64,000 nt of DNA, taken from assembly GCA_017553445.1 (NCBI GenBank), contig JAFZMD010000037.1:1-64000 (forward strand), written 5' to 3'. The notes below the pieces were generated by a model. It did no database searches. It was not told the DNA's origin and saw only the letters and a list, made by a program, of their open reading frames with translations. Position numbers and translations under genes: made by a program. This stretch comes from Methanobrevibacter sp. (GTDB lineage Archaea; Methanobacteriota; Methanobacteria; Methanobacteriales; Methanobacteriaceae). The stretch's first letter is position 1. Each line of letters begins with the position of its first letter. This document shows positions 10,367 to 22,929 of this stretch, one piece after another.

Positions 10367-11299
10367 TTAATCAATATTAAAAGGTTCTCGTTTATTAATG
10401 CCTTTTAAAAATATATCTTCCAATTCATCATCGCTTGCATCATTTCTTATTTCTGTGATTATATCTACAAGATTATCGTTTCTAAGCAGGCAAGGTTTTA
10501 TTTTCCCATCAGGCGTTACTCTTAATCTACTGCAATTTGCACAAAATTTAGAGTTATCGACGGGTTTAACTACCTCAATTTCTCCACCGTTTATGTAATA
10601 TTTTTTACGTCCCTGCATAAATTTACGTTCTCTAACCCCATCAGCCATATCAGCTAACTTTTCTTCAACCACATCTAACTTATAATGATATTCGGATGAG
10701 AATTTATCATCGTCACAATTTTCGCTTTCAATAAGTTCTATTAGTTGGAGTACCATGTTGTTGTCTCTGCAGAATTCAAACATGTCTTTAATCTCATGCT
10801 CGTTAATGTCTTTCATGACAACCATATTGATTTTAACGGGATAAAGTCCGACTTCGACACTTTTTAGGATTCCTGCTTTTGCCTGGTTTAAATAATCCAT
10901 ATTTGTAACAAATTTGTATGTATCTCTATTTAAAGTATCTAAACTAACATTAATCCTATTTAAACCAGCTTCTTTTAAGTCTTCAGCATATTTTTCAAGC
11001 AGTACTCCGTTAGTTGTAAGTGAAATGTCTTTGAAATCTAGGCTACCTATTTTTTCAACGATTTCAACGATATCTTTTCTAACCAATGGATCTCCACCGG
11101 AAAGCCTAATCTTTTTAACTCCTAATTTTTTAGCTATTTCACATATTTTATATATTTCATCAGGAGTCATTTCATCTTTTGAAGTTATCATTCCGTCATG
11201 GTGACAATATATGCAATTCTCATTGCATCTATTGGTAATAGTGATTCTGAGTGATATTATTGGCCTTTCGAAGTTATCTTTTACAAATTCATCATCCAT
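10367..11299 (-). CDS. moaA: GTP 3',8-cyclase MoaA (radical SAM)
   Basis: MoaA catalyses the first step of molybdopterin synthesis, rearranging GTP to the cyclic pterin precursor. The 310 residues carry the radical-SAM cluster motif [10 protein letters not shown] near residues 25-34 and the SAM-binding GGDPLVRKD. The C-terminal cluster motif [19 protein letters not shown] is specific for MoaA. The family usually ends in a Gly-Gly tail; this protein ends REPFNID, as some archaeal members appear to. The start codon directly abuts the mobB stop, with the ribosome binding site inside mobB, so the two are co-transcribed and translationally linked. The product feeds the Mo/W enzymes Fdh and Fwd encoded on either side. 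Confidence 0.95.
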
Positions 11300-12337
11300 T
11301 TAATCACTCTCCACTTTGATTTTTATATTATTGATTTCATCATCTATCTTTAGAGTGTCAATAACTGCAAAAATAGTTTCTTTTAATATTCCTCTTGTGA
11401 ATTTATTGATATCTACTGGATTATCATTTGTTTTTAGAGTAATGTTGGCGTCATTTAAGCTTTTGTTGTAAATGTTGGATATTTCAATATCTATTTTTTC
11501 AACATTACCTTCAGTTTTTAGGGAGTTAACCATTGCATTTATTGAATTTGTTATAAGGTCATTTGTAAACTTGTTTATCATCAGATTTCTGTCATTTATT
11601 AAAATTGTTGTTTTTTTGTCTATTTTAGAAGTTGATTCTGTATCAGGTATGACCAATTCGATTTTGTTGATATCTTCAACGCCATACTCATCAAGGTTTA
11701 GTGTGCTGATAACTCCTAAAATGTTCTGTTTTAAATAGTCGCTGACAAACCTGTTTAATCCTACGACTTTATTGTCAATTGATAAGTAACTGTGTACTTT
11801 ATCCAAGTCTTCAACTTTAAGATTTCCTTCACGGATTTCTTCAGCAATTGCCTCACCATCATTGAATCCGCAGTTGTTTGCAAACAAGGTATCAACAATA
11901 TCATGACCTCTTCTTTCAATGAGGTCAGCCAATTCACTTATGCCTTCATCATCAATTGTAAAGGAATCCACTTCTTTTATGGTATATTCGTCCCTAACTT
12001 CTGGGGAAGTAATGATTTTTGGATAATTGTAACTTTTATATCCTTCAATTATTACGAAATCAAAATTGTCAAAGTGTTTAAGTAGGTATAATATTCTATT
12101 CAAGTCATATTCAGCTTTCACGTTAAAGAATGTTGTTGATCCAACACCCACTACCAGATTTGCTCCGGCCTGTTTATGTTTCCATGTGTCTGTATTTTCC
12201 TTATCCATTTCTATAGAATGATGTGAATGCTTTATTGAGGCTACATTATATCCTCGCTTTGTTAACTCTTCAATGACTTTCACTGTTAGTGAAGTTTTTC
12301 CAGTGTTTTTTTTACCAACAATTGATGCAATTTTCAT
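11300..12337 (-). CDS. mobB: MobB-type GTPase with a three-repeat C-terminal extension
   Basis: The N-terminal part (residues 1-about 145) is the MobB P-loop GTPase domain linked to attachment of guanine nucleotide to molybdopterin. It has Walker A GKKNTGKTS at 8-16, the motif KHSHHSIEMDKENTDTWKHK, and VIIEGYK near 96-101. MobB proteins are usually about 165-175 residues. This one has 345. The extension starts with a helical segment (145-185) and then holds three copies of a roughly 40-residue unit at about 187-231, 246-286 and 300-343 (compare NRFVSDYLKQNILGVISTL, NKFTNDLITNSINAMVNSL, NKFTRGILKETIFAVIDTL), each ending in a beta-strand. The repeats' function is unknown. A 19-bp palindrome lies 60 bases upstream of the start. 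GGGAGAT precedes the ATG. Confidence 0.88.
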   Translation of the reverse strand: MKIASIVGKKNTGKTSLTVKVIEELTKRGYNVASIKHSHHSIEMDKENTDTWKHKQAGANLVVGVGSTTFFNVKAEYDLNRILYLLKHFDNFDFVIIEGYKSYNYPKIITSPEVRDEYTIKEVDSFTIDDEGISELADLIERRGHDIVDTLFANNCGFNDGEAIAEEIREGNLKVEDLDKVHSYLSIDNKVVGLNRFVSDYLKQNILGVISTLNLDEYGVEDINKIELVIPDTESTSKIDKKTTILINDRNLMINKFTNDLITNSINAMVNSLKTEGNVEKIDIEISNIYNKSLNDANITLKTNDNPVDINKFTRGILKETIFAVIDTLKIDDEINNIKIKVESD

Positions 12338-12396: not shown

Positions 12397-12415
12397 ATGT
12401 GTAGTTACTACACAT
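12397..12415. promoter_or_regulatory. 19-bp palindrome upstream of mobB (operator candidate 1)
   Basis: ATGTGTAGTTACTACACAT is perfectly symmetric around T12406. It matches candidate 2 at 12722-12740 except for the centre base and one symmetric pair (position 8 and its partner). It lies 60 bases before the mobB start, downstream of a possible TATA-like run, so a bound protein would block mobB-moaA transcription. Confidence 0.65.
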
Positions 12416-12503
12416 TATTTAGTCAAGCCTTAAAATTTGGCTAAATTTTGTGTTTTTGTAATATTTTTGGGATAATTTTTTATTACTTTTTTACCCGAAA
12501 TGG

Positions 12504-12529: not shown

Positions 12530-12704
12530 TAATTTATAGTTAAAAAAGATATAATTAATTAAAAATACTTATTTTTATTTTAAAATTATTTTAATATATT
12601 TATTTTAGATTTGTTTTATTTTAATTAATTTTTTAAATTTTTTTAGTGTAGTATTCCCACAGTAATATATAAAGATTCCGACTTAGATTTAGTAGGCAAA
12701 TATA

Positions 12705-12721: not shown

Positions 12722-12740
12722 ATGTGTAATCATTACACAT
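12722..12740. promoter_or_regulatory. 19-bp palindrome at the fwd operon start (operator candidate 2)
   Basis: ATGTGTAATCATTACACAT is perfectly symmetric around C12731. It overlaps the expected transcription start and touches the ribosome binding site of the HTH-ferredoxin gene, a classic place for autoregulation. It is the sister of the site at 12397-12415. Confidence 0.65.
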
Positions 12741-12750
12741 GGTGGTTCAA

Positions 12751-13200
12751 ATGCCAAAACATATTGCGTCTGGTTTAAAATATTTGGCTGCGGTTAAATT
12801 AAAGGAAGCAGGTGAAAGTCACCAGGCAATTGCTGATGAGTTAGGAGTTGATAGGTCCACTGTATCACATTATCTGAATGGCAGGAACTTATCCTGGAAT
12901 TCAATTGATGTTGCAAGAACTATCACTGAACTATCTCCCAGGGATTTTTTAATAATGACCAATGCGGTATTTGATGAACCGGAGCAGAGTCGAAAAATTG
13001 TGAATATTTGCCGAGAAAAAAACTATGAAGCAATTATTGAAGATTCCTGTATTGGTTGCGGCTTATGTGTAAATGCGTGTTTAATGAAAGCTATTAAGTT
13101 AGAATCATTGACAGCGCATACAAACTCCGTACTATGTTGTGGTTGTCAGCTATGTAAAGATGAGTGCCCAACTGATTCAATTAAAATTTTGGAGATTTAA
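12751..13200 (+). CDS. HTH-ferredoxin fusion protein, first gene of the fwd operon (FwdH-like)
   Basis: This 149-residue protein joins an N-terminal helix-turn-helix (KLKEAGESHQAIADELGVD followed by RSTVSHYLNGR, about residues 15-45) to two C-terminal ferredoxin-type motifs, CIGCGLCVNACLM and CCGCQLCKDECP. The second Cys group allows a two-cluster ferredoxin fold. ATG 12751 is chosen because GGTGG at 12741-12745 precedes it; ATG 12739 would overlap the palindrome. The next gene, fwdF, follows after 2 bases. In Methanothermobacter the fwd operon also begins with a small iron-sulfur protein, FwdH, and this may be its counterpart. The HTH and the palindromes at both ends of the upstream region suggest an iron-sulfur-sensing regulator of Fwd and perhaps of mobB-moaA. 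A purely electron-carrying role is the alternative. Confidence 0.8.
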   Translation: MPKHIASGLKYLAAVKLKEAGESHQAIADELGVDRSTVSHYLNGRNLSWNSIDVARTITELSPRDFLIMTNAVFDEPEQSRKIVNICREKNYEAIIEDSCIGCGLCVNACLMKAIKLESLTAHTNSVLCCGCQLCKDECPTDSIKILEI

Positions 13201-13202
13201 TA

Positions 13203-14300
13203 ATGATAAGAAATTTGAAAGAAGTTAATGACAATAACTTTGACATTACTAGGTCAGCGGAGGAAGTAAGGAATTTATCTTTCAAAGACCATGTCTGTAT
13301 TGGATGTGGAATTTGTGAGTCCACTTGTCCTGTTGGTGCAATTACCTTGAATGAGATTGCTATTGACTCTCGTGTTCAATTAGCTAATAATGTCTATTTC
13401 AGTGGTCATGAAAAAATTGCACAAAATATCCATGACGAATTTGATGTTCAAAGGATTAGTATTAATGAAGACAAATGTGTATTGTGTGGTATGTGTAGCG
13501 GATTATGTCCTGTTGACGCATTAGTATTAACCATTGATGGTGTACCAATTAGTGAAATCGAAGCATATCCTCACTACATTGCATATTCCGAAATTGACGA
13601 TGACGAATGTGTCTATTGTAAAAAATGTGAAATTGCATGTCCACGTGATGCTATCGCAATTGACAGAACATTACCAGATCGTGCAGATTTAGTAACTGGT
13701 GAAATTGAAATAAATGATGATGATTGTATTTACTGTGGTGTATGTGAAGAATTATGTCCTGCAGAAGCAATTGTTGTTGACAAAGAAACTGGTAGGGAAT
13801 CTATCGAAGTTGACACCGACAAATGTGTTTACTGTTTAGTATGTAAAAAAGCATGTCCTACTAACGCTATTAAAGCATTATGTAGAATTTGTTCATACGG
13901 TGAATATGATATTGACCCTGCAAAAGCTGTTGTTACAGGTAATTCAGTCATTGACAGTGACCTTTGTGTTTACTGTGGATGGTGTGAAGGAGTCTGCCCA
14001 ACAGATGCAGCTAAAGTCAAAAAACCATTTGAAGGTACAATTGAAGTTGACCAAGATAAATGTCAAGCATGTGGTGCTTGTGTAGATATTTGTAAATGTA
14101 ATGCATTGGCATTCCCAGTTTCAACTGGTCCAGGTTCAAGATTAGACCACATTGTTGCACAACCTGATTACTGTATAAAATGTAAAGCATGTGCTAAAGC
14201 ATGTCCTAACGGTGCAATAACTGTAACAAGAACTGAAGTTGATCACACTCCAACCAATTCAGCAACTTGGACAGATGCTTTAAATGCAATTAAAGACTAG
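13203..14300 (+). CDS. fwdF: Polyferredoxin subunit FwdF
   Basis: FwdF is the multi-cluster electron wire of formylmethanofuran dehydrogenase. The 365 residues contain eight CxxCxxCxxxC[PK]-type motifs, beginning CIGCGICESTCP, CVLCGMCSGLCP, CVYCKKCEIACP and CIYCGVCEELCP and ending CIKCKACAKACP. Such a protein can hold eight [4Fe-4S] clusters, as known for FwdF of Methanothermobacter. An extra Cys-containing segment (LCRICSYGEYD) lies between the fifth and sixth motifs. The gene follows the HTH-ferredoxin gene after 2 bases and is followed by fwdG after 8 bases. It links reduced ferredoxin to CO2 reduction on methanofuran. Confidence 0.95.
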   Translation: MIRNLKEVNDNNFDITRSAEEVRNLSFKDHVCIGCGICESTCPVGAITLNEIAIDSRVQLANNVYFSGHEKIAQNIHDEFDVQRISINEDKCVLCGMCSGLCPVDALVLTIDGVPISEIEAYPHYIAYSEIDDDECVYCKKCEIACPRDAIAIDRTLPDRADLVTGEIEINDDDCIYCGVCEELCPAEAIVVDKETGRESIEVDTDKCVYCLVCKKACPTNAIKALCRICSYGEYDIDPAKAVVTGNSVIDSDLCVYCGWCEGVCPTDAAKVKKPFEGTIEVDQDKCQACGACVDICKCNALAFPVSTGPGSRLDHIVAQPDYCIKCKACAKACPNGAITVTRTEVDHTPTNSATWTDALNAIKD

Positions 14301-14308
14301 GTGATTCG

Positions 14309-14539
14309 ATGGAACTTAAAGTAAATCAAGATAATTGTTTAGGATGCGGAATTTGTGTAATTGCTTGTCCTGTTAATGCTGCTATTAGTCCAGAAAATGC
14401 TGGTGGTAATGGTGCAAAAACTGAAGAAGTAGTTATCATGGTAGAAAATGGGTTTATTAAACTTTTCAGTCCAGATAAATGTGAATTATGTGGAACCTGT
14501 CAAATGTTTTGCCCAGTAAACGCTATATGGTTAGAATAG
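14309..14539 (+). CDS. fwdG: Ferredoxin subunit FwdG
   Basis: This 76-residue ferredoxin has two cluster motifs, [15 protein letters not shown] near the N-terminus and [15 protein letters not shown] near the C-terminus, with a spacer of about 30 residues. This is the two-cluster FwdG/FmdG layout, which hands electrons between FwdF and the catalytic FwdB. It starts with ATG after GGTGAT and lies between fwdF and fwdD. Confidence 0.92.
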
Positions 14540-14550
14540 GGGGAATAATT

Positions 14551-15120
14551 GTGCATTATGCTAATACTTATTTAGAAAAACCTGTTGTACCTGATGTAAA
14601 AATTACCGGGGAAGGAACTACTGATGTTCTTAAATGTATGTTAAACACAGGATCAGACATCTACCAAGGTGCATGTAAGAAAAGAGGTTCCACCTTAAAA
14701 GAAGAATATAAAAACGCTTCCGGAACCTGTTACATGGATCCAAGAGATATGGCAAAATTAGGTGTAAACAATTGGGATACTGTTTTAGTAAAAACCGATT
14801 TCGGTGAAGTTGTTGTAAACTGTGCAGTATCAAGAGATGCACCTCACGAAGGTACTGTATTCATTTGTAAAGGACCTTGGGCTAACACTATTGTAAGTCA
14901 CGATACTTACTGCTGTTCTGACCCTACTTACAAAGGTATTAAATGTACTGTTGAGAAAACAGACAGAAAAGTATTACTCATGGCTGATTTAATGAGATGG
15001 GTATACAAAAAATATGTTGATGAAACTGATGATGACACTATTGAAAACATGGACTCATTAGGTGAATTACCAGTTTACAAAGGACGTAAATGGGAGGAGT
15101 TGATTGATCATGACTTATGA
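14551..15120 (+). CDS. fwdD: Formylmethanofuran dehydrogenase subunit D
   Basis: FwdD is the small molybdopterin-dinucleotide-binding subunit that completes the FwdB active site. The core ([43 protein letters not shown]) has the double-psi beta-barrel pattern of this family. The protein has about 189 residues, while family members are commonly near 130; extra residues lie at both ends, the C-terminal tail running from about 135 ([17 protein letters not shown]). GTG 14551 is used because GGGGGAAT directly precedes it; an ATG at 14488 lies inside fwdG. The gene's end overlaps the start of fwdB, a sign of coupled translation. Confidence 0.92.
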
Positions 15121-16486
15121 ACCACCTATAACTGATTACGATTACATTGTTGAAAATTGTACTTGTGCATTTTGTGGATGTAACTGTGATGATTTAGACT
15201 ACTTGGTCAAAAACGGTCACGTTGTTGCTGTAAGACACGCATGCAGACTTGGTGCAAGTAAAATCATGGAAGATATGGACCAAAGATTAATTGTTCCAAT
15301 GATTAGGGATGAAAATGGAGAACTTATGGAAGTTGATTGGGATACTGCTTTAGATAAAGCTGCTGAATACATTGCTAACTCAGTAAGACCAGTATTTTAC
15401 GGTTGGTCTGAAACTTCTACTGAATGTATGAAAGAAGGAGTAGCTTTAGGTGAATATATTGGTGCAGTTTTAGATAACCAAGCAACTATCTGTCACGGTC
15501 CTTCATTGCAAGCTGTACAAAATGCAGGTTATCCTATCCAAACTTTAGGGGAAGTACAAAACAGAGCAGACGTTATTGCATACTCTGGAAGTAACGCAAT
15601 GAACTCTCACCCAAGACACATGGCAAGATATGCTGTATTCTGTCGTGGATACTTCAGACAAAGAGGAAGATTTGACAGAACTGTTATTACCATGGATCCA
15701 AAATTCTCAGACACTGCAAAATGTTCTGACAAATGGATTGGATTTGAACAAAACGGTGACTACGGTTTCTACAATGCTATTAGGGCTGTATTAAGAGGAA
15801 AAGAATTATACCAAGATGTAATTTCCGGAATTCCTAAAGAAGATATTTATGAATTAGCTGAAGAAATGAAAAATGCTGAATTCGGTGTTTTATTCTTCGG
15901 TCTTGGTTTAACTCACACATTATCCAAACAAAGAAACATTGATATTGCTATTAAAATGGTACAAGACTTAAACAGATTCTCCAAATGGGGTCTTACTCCA
16001 ATGAGAGGACACTTTAATGTAAATGGTTTCAACATTTTCATGGCATTTGAATGTGGATTCGCTTTCGGTGTTGACTACTGTAGAGGATACCCAAGATATA
16101 TGATGGGTGAAACCAACACTATCGATTTATTAGTAAGGAAAGAACCAGATTGTTTCATGGTTATTGCAGCTGACCCAGGTGCTCACTTCCCTAACGGAGC
16201 AAACCAACACTTAGCTAACATTCCTGTTATTCAAATCGATATCCACTGGGGTCCATCAACTGAACTTGCTGATGTAGTATTACCAGGTTCATTCATTGGT
16301 GTAGAATGTGCAGGTACCAGTTATCGTATGGATGGAGTTCCTATTTACATGAAAAAAGCTATCGACAAACCAGAAACTTGTCGTGATGACGAATGGATTG
16401 TCCGTGAATTGAAAGAAAGAGTAATGAAACTCAGAGAAGAGCCAAATACAGCTCCAAAATTTGTGCCAAATCCAAATGCACTCTAA
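15104..16486 (+). CDS. fwdB: Formylmethanofuran dehydrogenase catalytic subunit B
   Basis: FwdB holds the W- or Mo-bis-pterin centre that reduces CO2 to formate, which FwdA then condenses with methanofuran. The N-terminus carries the [4Fe-4S] ligands ([12 protein letters not shown] and a later HACRLGASK). The metal ligand is Cys in [12 protein letters not shown], so this is the cysteine and not the selenocysteine form. Later segments [29 protein letters not shown] and [17 protein letters not shown] bind the pterin. Start: TTG 15104 lies 4 bases after GGAGGAG; ATG 15110 is the alternative, two codons shorter. It overlaps fwdD by 17 bases. Whether it uses tungsten or molybdenum cannot be told from the sequence. 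Confidence 0.95.
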
Positions 16487-16496
16487 AGGTGATATA

Positions 16497-18209
16497 ATGG
16501 AATATATTCTTAAAAATGGTATAGTCTACGACCCAGCTAACGAAGTTAATGGGGAGCAAATGGATGTCATGTTCAAAGACGGCATTATCGTAGATGAAGT
16601 TTCCTCAGATGCTAAAGTCTTAGACGTTACCGATAAAATAGTCATGCCGGCAGGTATTGACCCTCACGCACACGTTGCAGGTCCAAAATTAGTAGTTGGA
16701 AGATTGTACAGACCTGAAGATTCCAGAAGAGGTGTTACTCAAAAAACTAAAGTATTAAGACCTGAATCTGGTTTCTCAATCCCAAGTTGTCCTGCAACTG
16801 GTTACAGATACTCAAGATTAGGTTACGGTACTGTTGTAGAAGCAGCTATGCCTCCTCTTGAAGCAAAACACACTCACGAAGAAATTGCAACTATTCCACA
16901 ATTAGATATTCCAGCTTTACCATTATTCGGTAACAACTGGTTTGTAATGGAATATGCAAAAGATAATAATATTGAAGATATTGCAGCATTTATTGCAGCA
17001 TGGTTAAAAATCTCAAAAGGTTACGGTGTAAAAATAGTAAACCCATGTGGAAGTGAAGCATGGGGATGGGGTATGAACGTACATGGTTTCAATGATAAAG
17101 CCCCATACTTTGATGTAACTTCTAAAGAAGTTGTTATTGCTTTAGCAAAAGCTAACGAAATGTTAAACTTACCTCACTCTATTCACATTCACCCTAACGA
17201 CTTAGGTCACCCTGGTAACGTACCAACTACCTTAGAAACCATGGATGCTATGGATGGCATTAAAAAAGGTAAAGGTGCAGCTGAAGTCAGGGATCAAGTT
17301 ATGCACATGACTCACTTGCAATTCCACTCTTACTTAGGTAACAGTTGGAAGGATGTAACATCCGGTGCTGAAGAAGTCGCTAAACACTTCAACAAAAAAG
17401 ACAACATAACTTGTGATATTGGTCAGGTAACTTTCGATGAAACCACTACCATGACTGCAGATGCTCCTATGGAATACGATTTATTCAGATTATCTGGTCT
17501 TAAATGGACTAACAAAGATATTGAATGTGAAACTGCAGCAGGTATTATTCCATGTATTTACTCCAAGAAAAGTCCTGTTAGTACATTGCAATGGGCAATT
17601 GGTCTTGAATTATTCTTGTTAATCGAAGACCCATGGAGAGTATGTTTAACTACTGACCACCCTAATGCAGGACCATTTACTAGATACCCAAGAATTATCT
17701 CTTGGTTAATGAGTAATCAGAAAAGACAAGACATGTGTGAAAATGAAGTTCACAAATGGGTTAATAAAAGAACCCTTCTCCCAAGTCTTGAAAGAGAATA
17801 CGATTTCTACGATATTGCAACTATTACAAGAGCTGCTCCAGCTAGAATTTATGGATTCACTGATAAAGGAGCTCTTACTCCAGGATACAGAGCAGATATT
17901 GCAGTATATGACATAAATCCTAATGATATTGACCCATCCAGACAAGCTGATGAAATCGAAAAAGGTTTCAATGTAGCTGAATACACAATTAAAGATGGTC
18001 AAATCTTAGTTAAAGATAAAGAAATTGTTAAAGTTAAAGAAAGTCAAAACGTTTGGGTTAACGTAAAAGGATGGGAACAAGAAGAACAAAAAGTCATCGA
18101 CAACATTATGCCGTTCTTCACCCAATACTACTCAGTTAAATGGGAAAACTATCCAGTACACGATCACTACGTATCTAACCCAATTAGAATAGATGTTGAT
18201 GGTAAATAG
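16497..18209 (+). CDS. fwdA: Formylmethanofuran dehydrogenase subunit A
   Basis: FwdA is an amidohydrolase-type subunit that joins formate to the amino group of methanofuran at a binuclear zinc site. The 570 residues start with the beta-sandwich of the family and then [10 protein letters not shown], the first metal-binding His pair. Later come [26 protein letters not shown] and [10 protein letters not shown], which carry further metal and catalytic residues. A C-terminal beta segment ([15 protein letters not shown]) is typical of dihydroorotase and hydantoinase relatives. ATG 16497 follows GGTGAT; the 12 codons upstream lie inside fwdB and are ignored. In this operon fwdA comes after fwdB, unlike the fwdHFGDACB order known from Methanothermobacter. 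Confidence 0.95.
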
Positions 18210-18220
18210 GGGTGTTTAGT

Positions 18221-19087
18221 TTGAAAACAATTACATTTGATCAAATAAAAACTTCTTCAATCGCTTTAGAATTCGATGAATTGATTCCTGATGAAATTTA
18301 TTCATGGACTGAAGCTGATTTCGCAAAATATCAAGTTCCTATTGGAAACTCCAGATTCCCAATCACTGATTTCTTCGACATTACCGTTGAAGGTGAAGCT
18401 GAAGGACCTGCTGAAGTTAAAATGATTCTTAACGGGGACTTAAACAGAGTTAAATACATTGGTTGTAAAATGAGTGCTGGAGACATTGTCTGTAACAGTA
18501 GTGTAGACCTTCACGTTGGTGCTGAAATGAGTGGTGGATCCATTCTCGTTAATGGTAATGCTGCTGCTCACGCTGGAAGAGAAATGTCTGGCGGATACCT
18601 TGAAATTACTGGTAATACCAAAGAATTCACTGGTGCTTCCTACATTGGTGAATGGAGAGGTATGACTGGTGGAGAAATTGTTGTTGGCGGTAACGCTGGT
18701 AAACAATGTGGTGAATGTTTAACTGGTGGTAAAATCCATGTTAAAGGTAACTGTGATATCTTAGCCGGTATTCACATGACCAAAGGTATTATTGAAATCG
18801 ACGGTGATGTAAACCGTTGGCCTGGTGGACAAATGAAAAACGGTACTATTGTTATTCACGGGTTCTTAGGAAGATTGCTTGAAGGATTTGTCCTTGAAGG
18901 TATTGTAGAAGATCCTGAAGACAGTGGTGTTGTATTCAAAGGTAAATATATTAAATATACTGGTGATATTGGTCTTAACGGTAAAGGTAATTTATACTTG
19001 GATGCTGAAGCAAACAAAGAAAAATTATCCTCTTACGGTGAATTGGACGACGAATATACATCAATCAGAGAATATAGGAATTTATAA
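18221..19087 (+). CDS. fwdC: Formylmethanofuran dehydrogenase subunit C
   Basis: FwdC is a beta-helix subunit related to the C-terminal domain of glutamate synthase and serves as a structural part of the Fwd complex. The 288 residues show about seven GXXGGXX repeats (for example [49 protein letters not shown]). The likely start is TTG 18221 after GGGGTG; a GTG at 18212 would sit within that ribosome binding site. It is the last gene of the operon. T-rich sequence follows its stop codon. Confidence 0.94.
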
Positions 19088-19133: not shown

Positions 19134-19427
19134 ATGGTAGAAGAGCTTTTAATGAGTGTTGATGAAGCAATTGAATATGTTAGGAATAATGTTAATGTGG
19201 GTGATACTTTAGAAGTTTCTTACAATCGTATTTTTGCTCCAGGTGAAGTTTTAGGCATTACTGAAGAAGATGAAGAAACTGGAGAAGGTCTCAGAGTTGG
19301 TTTACAGTTAAACGGTGAAATATTAAATCAGGCCGTTGAAATTGATTTTAAAGAAATATATGAAGATTTACTTGAAATCAATCACATTACTGAAGATAAA
19401 GAAGTTACTATTGAAATTGACTTCTAA
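19134..19427 (+). CDS. Small uncharacterised methanogen protein, copy 1
   Basis: This acidic protein of 97 residues begins MVEELLMSVDEAIEYVRNN and contains TLEVSYNRIFAPGEVLGI. It is followed 95 bases later by a clear paralogue. The ATG at 19134 has AAGGTGG upstream; the long in-frame upstream extension lies inside fwdC. It resembles a small family seen in methanogens (possibly DUF2097, from memory). No catalytic motif, Cys cluster or membrane segment is seen. It could be an accessory factor for Fwd because it follows that operon, but this is inference only. Confidence 0.7.
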   Translation: MVEELLMSVDEAIEYVRNNVNVGDTLEVSYNRIFAPGEVLGITEEDEETGEGLRVGLQLNGEILNQAVEIDFKEIYEDLLEINHITEDKEVTIEIDF

Positions 19428-19522
19428 AATAACTCTTTTTTTTATTAATTTTTAATTTTGTTTTATTACCTACGAACAATTTATATATTATAAGATATAA
19501 GTATAAGTAAGAGGTGAATTCT

Positions 19523-19816
19523 ATGAAAGAATTGTCATTATCTGTAGATGAAGCTGTAAATTACTTGAAAGAAAATGTAAAAATCCATGATAATCTTGAA
19601 ATTTCATATAATAGGATTTTTGCTGAAGGTGAAATTTTAAATGTGGATTTTTCTGAATATTTTGGAAAACCGGGATTTAAAATCTTATTGTCTTTAGATG
19701 AATCACATCTCAACCCTACTATTGAAATCGATGTATATGAAATTCAAGAAGATTTAATTGAATTTACTTATAAACCTCAAAATGATGGTGAAATTGTGGA
19801 AGTAACTGTAGTTTAA
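19523..19816 (+). CDS. Small uncharacterised methanogen protein, copy 2
   Basis: This protein of 97 residues is a paralogue of the preceding gene: both read LSVDEAxxYxxxNVxxxDxLExSYNRIFAxGEx near the N-terminus and end in an acidic EID...EDLxE...EV stretch. It has its own TATA-like run (TTTATATATTATAAG near 19480-19495) and an AGAGGTGA site before ATG 19523, so it can be expressed separately from copy 1. Its stop codon lies inside an 18-bp palindrome shared with nrpR. Function unknown. Confidence 0.7.
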   Translation: MKELSLSVDEAVNYLKENVKIHDNLEISYNRIFAEGEILNVDFSEYFGKPGFKILLSLDESHLNPTIEIDVYEIQEDLIEFTYKPQNDGEIVEVTVV

Positions 19817-19823
19817 ACTACAG
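19806..19823. terminator. 18-bp palindrome spanning two convergent stop codons
   Basis: CTGTAGTTTAAACTACAG is perfectly self-complementary. It contains the TAA of the plus-strand gene (19814-19816) and the stop of nrpR on the other strand (TAG, 19818-19820). RNA from either direction would form a hairpin at its very end. No long T-run follows on the plus strand, so it may act as a 3'-end stabiliser or a weak bidirectional terminator. Confidence 0.5.
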
Positions 19824-21500
19824 CCTATCCATATTTTCAAATGGCATTAATTTTGTATCTGCTTTTACTTCAATGTCTATTCCTTTTTCTTTAATGGCAG
19901 CTATTGTATTTAGACCGCTACCTGTTACAAGGCCGAAATAATAATTGTCCGCTTTTGCATTATAGGTTAATTCTCTAGGTTTACCGATTTTATAAATAGG
20001 CAATCCTAATTTTGACAGCTTATCCAGGAAATAAACACTGTGGTCTCTTGCAACATATGGTATTTCTTTTAAACTTGCAAGCAGCCTTTTTGGCCCGTTA
20101 TCGTTAATTATTGATGTCATGTCCTTAGCGATGAATATTTTATGGGGATCTATTGAAGAACCTGTGTATGAAATCAAATCAATGAATAATGGGGGTTCAG
20201 TCAGTTCCAACAATCCCCCGTATTTTGGCGTAGATTTAATCCCATTTTTTATTAATAATCCATCTATGCTTAAACTACATATGGTGGCTATGCCTACTTT
20301 TTTGTCATCTTCAGGATGAGGTATGATTTTGAAATGAGGATTTACATATTTTTGGTTTAGTTCATAACTTTTTTTCATGGTTTGCATTGCTTCATCCAAA
20401 TCATCTTTATTTATATAAGATATGTTGGCTACAATGTTGCCGCTTTTCTTTTCAATGTCCAAGTCAACCTGTTGGATTAGATTCCATGATTTTGACAGGA
20501 TAAATGAAATATTGGTTTTTATATTTTGTTTGTGTTCTTTTAATTCATGGTTCATGTTGGAGGCTATAGGTGTTAATTCATTGAAATTCTCTAGTTCTTC
20601 TCCAATTTTGATATTGATGTCATGACCTAATTCCTGTAATGCACAGAATGGTGTTATTCCTCCAATTATTCCAATTCCAACCATTCCTTCATCAACATGC
20701 AATCCCAATATGTTTTCTCCTTCTTCAGATATGGCTATTATACCTCCGATACCTATTTTTTGCAGTTTGGATAGAATTTTCATTGTTTTTTCTTTGCCTA
20801 CACTAGGTATTAGTCTGAAATTTGCAGGTATGTATCCTGTACCTTCATTCATCACATCCAATACGGATGTCATTTTGGGAGCTATAAACGCATCTAAAGG
20901 TGATATTGAGGTTTTCTTGTAGGATATTAGTTCTTCATAAGCTATTGGATGATAATCTTCAATTTTTAATAAACCTCCATATTGCGGCTGTGATACAATT
21001 CCTTCATTCAAAAGTATTCCATCGATTGTTGTGCCGCATATGGTTTTTATCTCTATGGGGTCCTTACCTTCAACTCTATTTATATTAACATAAGGGCTCA
21101 CAGAAAGACCACTTGTGAAAATATTTTTAAGTAAATCGTAGCTTTCTTCGCTATAAATGGTTGACGTGTTAACAACAACATTTCCTTTTTTATCCATATA
21201 GTTAAAGTCAGTCAAATATATCAATTCTTGAAATTTTGAATAGATGAAATCAACTTGATCATAAATCAATCCTTTTTCTAATTTTTCACGCCCTAAATCT
21301 GTAATCTGTCGCCCAGAATAACCCATCCTTTCAGTGAAACCTTTTTCGTCTAAAATTTGCATGTGGTATCTTACTGCACGTTCACCTAAATTAAAGCCTT
21401 TTTCTTTTAACTCATCGGCTATTAATTTGGAACCTGTAGGTTTTTCTTGTTTATTTAAAATTCTTAAAATTTCAATCATCCGGCGTTCTGATTCTGACAT
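19818..21500 (-). CDS. nrpR: Global nitrogen regulator NrpR
   Basis: NrpR represses nitrogen-assimilation genes when 2-oxoglutarate is low. The 560 residues start with a winged-helix domain (RRMIEILRILNKQ to RQITDLGREKLEKG). Two related regulatory domains (DUF128/NrpR domain) follow at about 85-320 and 325-560. The duplication is visible: KIEDYHPIAYEELISYKKTSISPLD and LLELTEPPLFIDLISYTGSSIDP, and TICGTTIDGILLNEGI and TICSLSIDGLLIKNGI. ATG 21500 follows GGGAGAT; the six codons upstream are not needed. The gene lies directly downstream of glnA in the same direction, and a GGAA-N6-TTCC operator stands before glnA. In Methanococcus the two-domain protein is the single-chain repressor type. Confidence 0.93.
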   Translation of the reverse strand: MSESERRMIEILRILNKQEKPTGSKLIADELKEKGFNLGERAVRYHMQILDEKGFTERMGYSGRQITDLGREKLEKGLIYDQVDFIYSKFQELIYLTDFNYMDKKGNVVVNTSTIYSEESYDLLKNIFTSGLSVSPYVNINRVEGKDPIEIKTICGTTIDGILLNEGIVSQPQYGGLLKIEDYHPIAYEELISYKKTSISPLDAFIAPKMTSVLDVMNEGTGYIPANFRLIPSVGKEKTMKILSKLQKIGIGGIIAISEEGENILGLHVDEGMVGIGIIGGITPFCALQELGHDINIKIGEELENFNELTPIASNMNHELKEHKQNIKTNISFILSKSWNLIQQVDLDIEKKSGNIVANISYINKDDLDEAMQTMKKSYELNQKYVNPHFKIIPHPEDDKKVGIATICSLSIDGLLIKNGIKSTPKYGGLLELTEPPLFIDLISYTGSSIDPHKIFIAKDMTSIINDNGPKRLLASLKEIPYVARDHSVYFLDKLSKLGLPIYKIGKPRELTYNAKADNYYFGLVTGSGLNTIAAIKEKGIDIEVKADTKLMPFENMDRL

Positions 21501-21573
21501 GAAATATCTCCCATTCAAAATTAAATATAAGTGATTTTAATTATATATCAAAAAATAAAAATGATATTTAGAT

Positions 21574-22929
21574 TTAAATATCCAAATATTTTCTTTGTTC
21601 GTATCCGAATACCTGTACTCTGTATTCGTCCCATTCTTTATACTTGAGTTCAAGGAATTTTTGGCTGACATGATTTCCAAGTGCATTCAAGATAAGAGGA
21701 TCTTCTTCAAGTGCATGATATGCTTCCCATAAACTGGTAGGTAAAACTTTTATTCCCATTGATTCCCTTTCCTCTTCAGTCATTTTATAAATGTCCAGTT
21801 CTATCGGTTCGCCAGGATCAATTTTATTCACGATTCCATCAATACCTGCTTCAAGCATAACTGTAAATGCTAAGTATGGGTTACATGCTGGGTCAGGAGA
21901 TCTGTATTCGATACGGGTTGCTTTGCCTCTTGCAGCAGGAACCCTAATTAAAGCAGATCTGTTTTTAAGACCATATGCTCTGTATACTGGAGCTTCAAAA
22001 CCCGGCACTAAACGTTTGTAGGAGTTTACAATTGGGTTAGTGATTGCAGTGATTGCTGGGGCGTGTTTTAATAGCCCGCCCATAAAGTGAAGTGCATCTT
22101 TTGAAAGACCGGTTTCTGAATCAGGGTCTGAAAATAAGTTTTTGTCTCCTTTAAATACGGATTGGTGACAGTGCATACCACTGCCGCTCACACCAAAGAA
22201 CGGTTTTGGCATGAATGTTACTCTATAATCTAGCTGATCGAAAGTAGCCATATTATCTACAATTGCTTTAATTGCCTGTTTGAATGTAATAACTGCATCG
22301 GCTGTTTTCAATGCATCCTTAAATTTAAATGCGATTTCATTCTGGCCTGGAGCTACTTCGTGGTGTGATGCTTCTACTTCAAAATCAAGTTCTTCTAAAT
22401 TTAAAGTCAGTTCCCTTCTGAAGTCAGGTCCCTTATCACGAGGTTCAACATCGAAGTATCCCGCCTGGTCGTAAGGCATCGGATATCCATTTTCATCGAT
22501 ATCTACAATGAAAAATTCCGGTTCAGGACCGATGTTATATTGCAATCCCATTTTTGCGATATGTGATAATGATTTTTTAAGCACTCCTCTTGGATCTCCT
22601 TCAAACGGTTCTTTTTCAGCGGTCCACACATCACAAATGAATCGGCATGTTGCTGATTCTTCTGGTCTCCAGGAAAGTCTTGAGTAAGTGTCAATGTCTG
22701 GCTTTAAAACCAAATCACTGTCATTCACTCCAACGAATCCTTCAATTGATGATCCATCGAATAACATTCCTTCATTGAATAATTCATTCATATCTTCGCC
22801 ATTAAATGGAATAACAATATTTTTAACGGTTCCATTAATATCTACGAATTGTAAACGGATAAATTTGATGTTGTCTTCTTTCATTTGTTCTTTCATTTGT
22901 TCTATTTTTTCTTCGCTGATGTCGCTCAT
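21574..22929 (-). CDS. glnA: Glutamine synthetase type I
   Basis: This enzyme makes glutamine from glutamate, ammonia and ATP and is the main ammonium-assimilation enzyme at low nitrogen. The 451 residues show the N-terminal beta-grasp domain ([19 protein letters not shown]), the signature FDGSSIEGF, the metal-binding segments [26 protein letters not shown] and [12 protein letters not shown], and the C-terminal [24 protein letters not shown] do not see the usual adenylylation-type tyrosine motif near the C-terminus, so control is probably by transcription and metabolite binding. An NrpR-type operator lies 35-48 bases upstream of the start. Confidence 0.96.

Follow-up and report, generated by a model that had tools for sequence, protein, structure and literature searches.

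The window analysed here, a 64,000-nucleotide stretch of a Methanobrevibacter sp. contig, carries a fwd operon in the order fwdH-F-G-D-B-A-C, and the position of fwdH as its first gene, proposed in an earlier note on this DNA, agrees with the gene order in both the window and its relatives. The fwdH coding sequence (12751-13200, forward strand) encodes 149 amino acids. Its start is corrected from the ATG at 12739 given previously, as alignment places the true start at the ATG of 12751 (MPKH, common to homologues), while most homologues lack the upstream ATG or have it in another frame. A ribosome-binding site, GGTGG, lies at 12741-12745 on the same strand, and GGTGA or GGTGG is conserved ahead of the start codon. 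The polyferredoxin gene fwdF (13203-14300, forward strand; NCBIfam NF042909 FwdF, 436 bits against a cutoff of 375) begins directly after the fwdH stop codon, and fwdH also immediately precedes fwdF in relatives. The genes fwdG, D, B, A and C follow (14309-19087, forward strand), assigned from their open reading frames and order and from fwdC co-occurrence. The divergent neighbour is a mobB-like gene (11300-12337, reverse strand), found in 17 of 20 genera and not in Methanosphaera, which is adjoined by a moaA-like radical SAM gene (10367-11299, reverse strand); both were read from open reading frames. Two related small proteins of unknown function are encoded after fwdC (19137-19427 and 19514-19816), and a homologue also lies 3' of fwdC in Methanosphaera (L222, L223, L224). 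An NrpR-like nitrogen repressor gene (19818-21518) adjoins glnA (21574-22929), both on the reverse strand.

FwdH consists of an XRE/cI-type helix-turn-helix (HTH), a helical linker and a 2x[4Fe-4S] ferredoxin domain, in that order, as had been claimed of an HTH joined to two [4Fe-4S] motifs. The HTH (residues 13-46; 12787-12888, forward strand) scores above the Pfam gathering threshold for HTH_23 and, in the window protein itself, slightly below that for HTH_3, while 15 of 15 homologous N-termini match HTH_3 at E <= 0.01 (best 1.6e-8). The ferredoxin domain (residues 95-149; 13033-13197, forward strand) gives two Pfam Fer4 matches and contains both CxxCxxCxxxC motifs of 2x[4Fe-4S] ferredoxins, and all eight cluster cysteines (C100, C103, C106, C110, C129, C132, C135, and C139) are invariant among 45 homologues. 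Single-sequence structure prediction was poor (pLDDT 48), and an alignment-based AlphaFold model was used in its place (mean pLDDT 94.5, pTM 0.87). This model predicts the ferredoxin domain and, in the N-terminal region for which the earlier note had suggested such a check, the HTH helices 24-31 and 35-43, the latter being the recognition helix (12853-12879, forward strand). The most conserved part of the protein is this helix and its flank (residues 34-48), with a mean entropy of 0.23 as opposed to 1.13 for the whole protein and 1.06 for the ferredoxin domain. The window protein is 97% identical to FwdH of an M. millerae assembly. A PDB fold search with FwdH recovered chiefly ferredoxin domains, and a scan of the genome contigs was dominated by generic ferredoxins. 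Proteins of the lambda-repressor and C.Esp1396I types are among the nearest HTHs of solved structure.

Three candidate operators with the consensus TGTGT-N7-ACACA, given here without strand, are found at the fwdH promoter. The palindrome on which the idea of an autorepressor was originally based is op2 (TGTGTAATCATTACACA, 12723-12739), an exact dyad; it proves to be one member of a set whose other two members, op1 at 12645-12661 and op3 at 12398, had been missed. op1 (AGTGTAGTATTCCCACA) is an imperfect copy located 78 bp upstream of op2, where it abuts, at the BRE position, a TATA-like box (ATATATAAA, 12665-12673, forward strand). A conserved TAGTAGG (12690-12696, forward strand), which appears as a footprint in Methanobrevibacter, lies ~25 bp from the TATA centre, the distance expected for a transcription start, and would mark its putative position. 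Conservation of the intergenic region among Methanobrevibacter genomes is concentrated mainly in op3, in the block formed by op1, TATA, TAGTAGG and op2 and, more weakly, at ~12452-12487. The op1-TATA-op2 module is found in nearly every Methanobacteriales genus examined. Its two operators are separated by 77-80 bp in ~64 of the 72 different upstream regions compared, and the end of op1 lies 2-4 bp before the TATA box in most genera. Scores of at least 9/10 are reached by op1 in 22 and by op2 in 21 of 28 representatives, compared with 0.3% in Markov nulls. A number of Methanobrevibacter and g15 genomes have an eroded left half-site in op2. Exact TGTGTARTNAYTACACA sites occur only twice in the 1.96-Mb genome, at 12723-12739 and 12398-12414, and a slightly looser form of the operator, with 0 mismatches, gave 0 control matches in 41 genomes. 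With 3 mismatches allowed, the motif is not enriched in the 1.96-Mb genome (24 matches vs. 58 for the reversed control), so the significance of the operators rests on exact matches and conservation. A chance palindrome was ruled out by this conservation together with the fixed spacing. A wider regulon was likewise rejected, as convincing matches across the genome map to the fwdH locus and the other exact or near-exact ones examined fall in coding or convergent regions, and the matches listed for Methanothermobacter include no FwdH-type operator close to its second fwdC locus, the Mo-type one.

The distal operator, op3 (TGTGTAGTTACTACACA, 12398-12414), is an exact match 247 bp upstream of op1 and ~60 bp upstream of the mobB start codon. 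It recurs in about half of the Methanobacteriales genera examined, at a distance from op1 of 244-260 bp in many genera or 280-282 bp in g15 and Methanoflexus, and is absent from Methanothermobacter, from the f4 lineage (a Methanothermus-like genome, G037) and from several other genera. Of 21 lineage representatives, 12 score at least 9/10, where the null expectation is 0.0025. This null overstates independence because the lineages are related, and for one of the 12, Methanothermobacter, the match is probably another site near op1. Genus g15 (L200, L198, L197, L199, L201) carries two or three tandem distal operators, 23-24 bp apart, upstream of fwdH. Helical phasing of the op3 distances (246, 257, and 281 bp) was considered and is too inconsistent to claim. 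Between mobB and fwdH, many Methanobrevibacter genomes carry an inserted second gene for a FwdF-like polyferredoxin, with its own operator copy beside it (L217:2556-3827, L215:2025-3392, L214:3452-4483, L213:2502-3515, and L216:1953-2934); it is preceded in some genomes by a small ferredoxin gene, and the L217 protein scores 398 bits against NCBIfam FwdF.

From its position, op3 could instead belong only to the divergent mobB-moaA operon and coordinate the synthesis of molybdopterin with that of Fwd. This explanation, possible but less likely than not, draws on the proximity of op3 to mobB in Methanobrevibacter and on the genomes with a second FwdF-like gene, which have a copy next to mobB too. 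Against it, op3 holds its distance to the op1 of fwdH where mobB is displaced (g12, ~317 bp away) or not adjacent (g15), and the distance to fwdH is also kept where a ferredoxin/FwdF-like operon is inserted between the two genes. The distance is therefore tied to fwdH and not to mobB, which points to a function at the fwdH promoter, possibly through looping. The site may serve both genes in Methanobrevibacter and also control mobB-moaA there.

The N-terminus of FwdH was found in 112 of 152 genomes of the phylum, representing 17 of 20 genera, while fwdC is present in 128 and mobB in 113 of these genomes. Genus and family names not printed in the record titles are our reading from gene content, by which genus g18 was identified as Methanosphaera. 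This genus has fwdC and lacks both fwdH and mobB, and at three of its loci fwdGDBAC occurs without fwdH, without fwdF and without the op1/op2 module. Methanosphaera lacks molybdopterin synthesis (PMC6120340). The functional pathway has been lost entire, and the co-loss of fwdH and its operator module is thus not specific for regulation. In one Methanosphaera fwd promoter region (L222), GTGTA/TACAC repeats of a different spacing are clustered ~110-190 bp upstream of fwdG and are perhaps an operator relic. An apparent loss of fwdH in four Methanobrevibacter genomes (G007, G082, G088, and G116) was discounted, as the contig ends before fwdH. In 23 genomes of one other archaeal phylum, a search run without a positive control gave no match to the FwdH N-terminus.

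FwdH of Methanothermobacter, in its fwdHFGDACB operon, is an orthologue with ~57% identity that, on the alignment suggested by the earlier note, has the same HTH and ferredoxin domains; the operon position and the op1/op2 module are also the same, and the locus differs in having no op3. In the literature searched, FwdH is described only as an enzyme subunit, and no DNA-binding role was found. With lambda cI and the XRE-family repressors (HTH_3; C.Esp1396I, HK620 cI), FwdH shares the class of HTH, dyad operators at its own promoter and a possible distal operator, and it matches phage HK620 cI at 47% over 53 aa. It differs from these repressors in its archaeal promoter and in having a 2x[4Fe-4S] ferredoxin in place of the sensor/dimer domain. 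The N-terminal 98 aa are also co-linear with an XRE-type regulator (hhalign 97%, homology over 82 aa), which we take to be COG2522-like and which has a Cys-rich C-terminus and no ferredoxin domain. This protein is encoded in two relatives (L225:968-1387 and L226:626-955), in L226 near a cysK/cysteine synthase gene, and is possibly a sulfur or Fe-S regulator.

The known Fe-S cluster regulators IscR, FNR, SoxR, and NsrR combine a DNA-binding domain with a cluster-binding domain, as FwdH does, and each of their protomers holds a single cluster within a dedicated sensor fold. FwdH is unlike them in that a full two-cluster ferredoxin is fused to a cI-like HTH, an architecture not found described in the literature searched, which covered few subscription journals. 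To our knowledge, Tfx of Methanothermobacter has no ferredoxin domain. Like FwdH in its proposed role, it is a DNA-binding regulator whose gene lies next to an operon for formylmethanofuran dehydrogenase (fmdECB), whereas FwdH is encoded in fwd and its operators are anchored to the fwd promoter. The target of Tfx is the Mo-enzyme operon, and tungstate represses transcription of the gene for Tfx itself (PMC3087415).

Taken together, these observations make it very probable that FwdH binds DNA and regulates its own operon, fwd, instead of serving as a subunit of the enzyme. The earlier proposal that it regulates fwd through its own promoter has strong backing from genome comparison: the recognition helix is invariant, the conserved operators stand at fixed spacing around the promoter, fwdH and the module are lost together in Methanosphaera, and FwdH is present in no solved structure. 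From sequence comparison, we consider it highly likely that FwdH binds op1, op2, and op3 and thereby regulates fwd. The erosion of op2 in some genomes and the lack of op3 in several genera weigh against this view. Another factor could use the same operators, and that FwdH itself is their ligand is to be expected with similarly strong confidence. The competing explanation that FwdH is an electron-transfer or assembly subunit of Fwd, its HTH a protein-docking relic and its operators bound by some other factor, is very unlikely. FwdH has been named as a subunit (PMC3087415), fwdH adjoins fwdF wherever it was seen, and both are lost in Methanosphaera. However, conservation is higher in the residues predicted to contact DNA than in the ferredoxin domain, and in a PDB search that included Methanothermobacter Fwd structures no chain matched full-length FwdH, even though Methanothermobacter has the gene. 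In the solved Fwd complexes of the PDB, FwdH is thus not a stoichiometric subunit. It is even less plausible, to the point of being highly improbable, that op2 acts not as a DNA operator but in the RNA, as a hairpin or translational element. The right half of op2 is its best kept part and op2 abuts the ribosome-binding site in nearly all genomes, but op1 and op3 share the motif and sit outside the putative transcript. In Candidatus Methanoflexus (L056), moreover, the op1-TATA-op2 module lies ~190 bp further upstream of the start codon with its 79-bp spacing intact, so that op2 belongs with op1 and not with the ribosome-binding site. This displacement and the lack of an Rfam match led to the rejection of such an element.

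The direction of control is less certain. An autorepressor is likelier than an activator, and it seems reasonably probable, judging from the placement of the operators on both flanks of the promoter, that FwdH represses fwd. Archaeal activators can act from the upstream edge of BRE/TATA, and op1 is situated there at a near-fixed distance, from which FwdH in a given cluster state might recruit TBP/TFB. Such an activator is a rather unlikely alternative, as op2 downstream of the putative start site is in a roadblock position and the two-sided arrangement is typical of repressors. In the repressor model, a FwdH dimer would read the TGTGT-N7-ACACA dyad through its cI-like recognition helix, with op1 covering the BRE and upstream edge of the TATA box and op2 located ~30-45 bp into the transcribed region, and the promoter would be shut when both are occupied. 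The distal op3, ~250-280 bp upstream, may strengthen this shut-off through looping to the promoter operators, a step that we put forward tentatively. The 2x[4Fe-4S] domain would gate binding by cluster occupancy or redox state, and fwd output would follow the iron-sulfur or low-potential electron supply. That the clusters are the signal is, on balance, the favoured view, and it is drawn from the intact cluster ligands. The complete picture, in which a phage-repressor-like FwdH with a low-potential two-cluster ferredoxin sensor closes a ~325-bp loop between distal and promoter sites and cluster state sets fwd transcription, is speculative and on the whole doubtful. The W-enzyme, with FwdH counted as a subunit, is listed as "formed constitutively" in Methanothermobacter (Kaster et al., PMC3087415), which speaks against strong control, and any regulation of fwd is therefore not a simple Mo/W switch.

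The control of formylmethanofuran dehydrogenase in hydrogenotrophic methanogens is poorly understood. The enzyme catalyses the entry step of CO2 methanogenesis, a main route in the rumen and gut. FwdH, so far listed as part of this enzyme, here looks like a dedicated regulator with a defined operator set that has been kept across an order. If true, this would link iron-sulfur or low-potential electron status to methanogenesis and would constitute a control point in gut methanogens.
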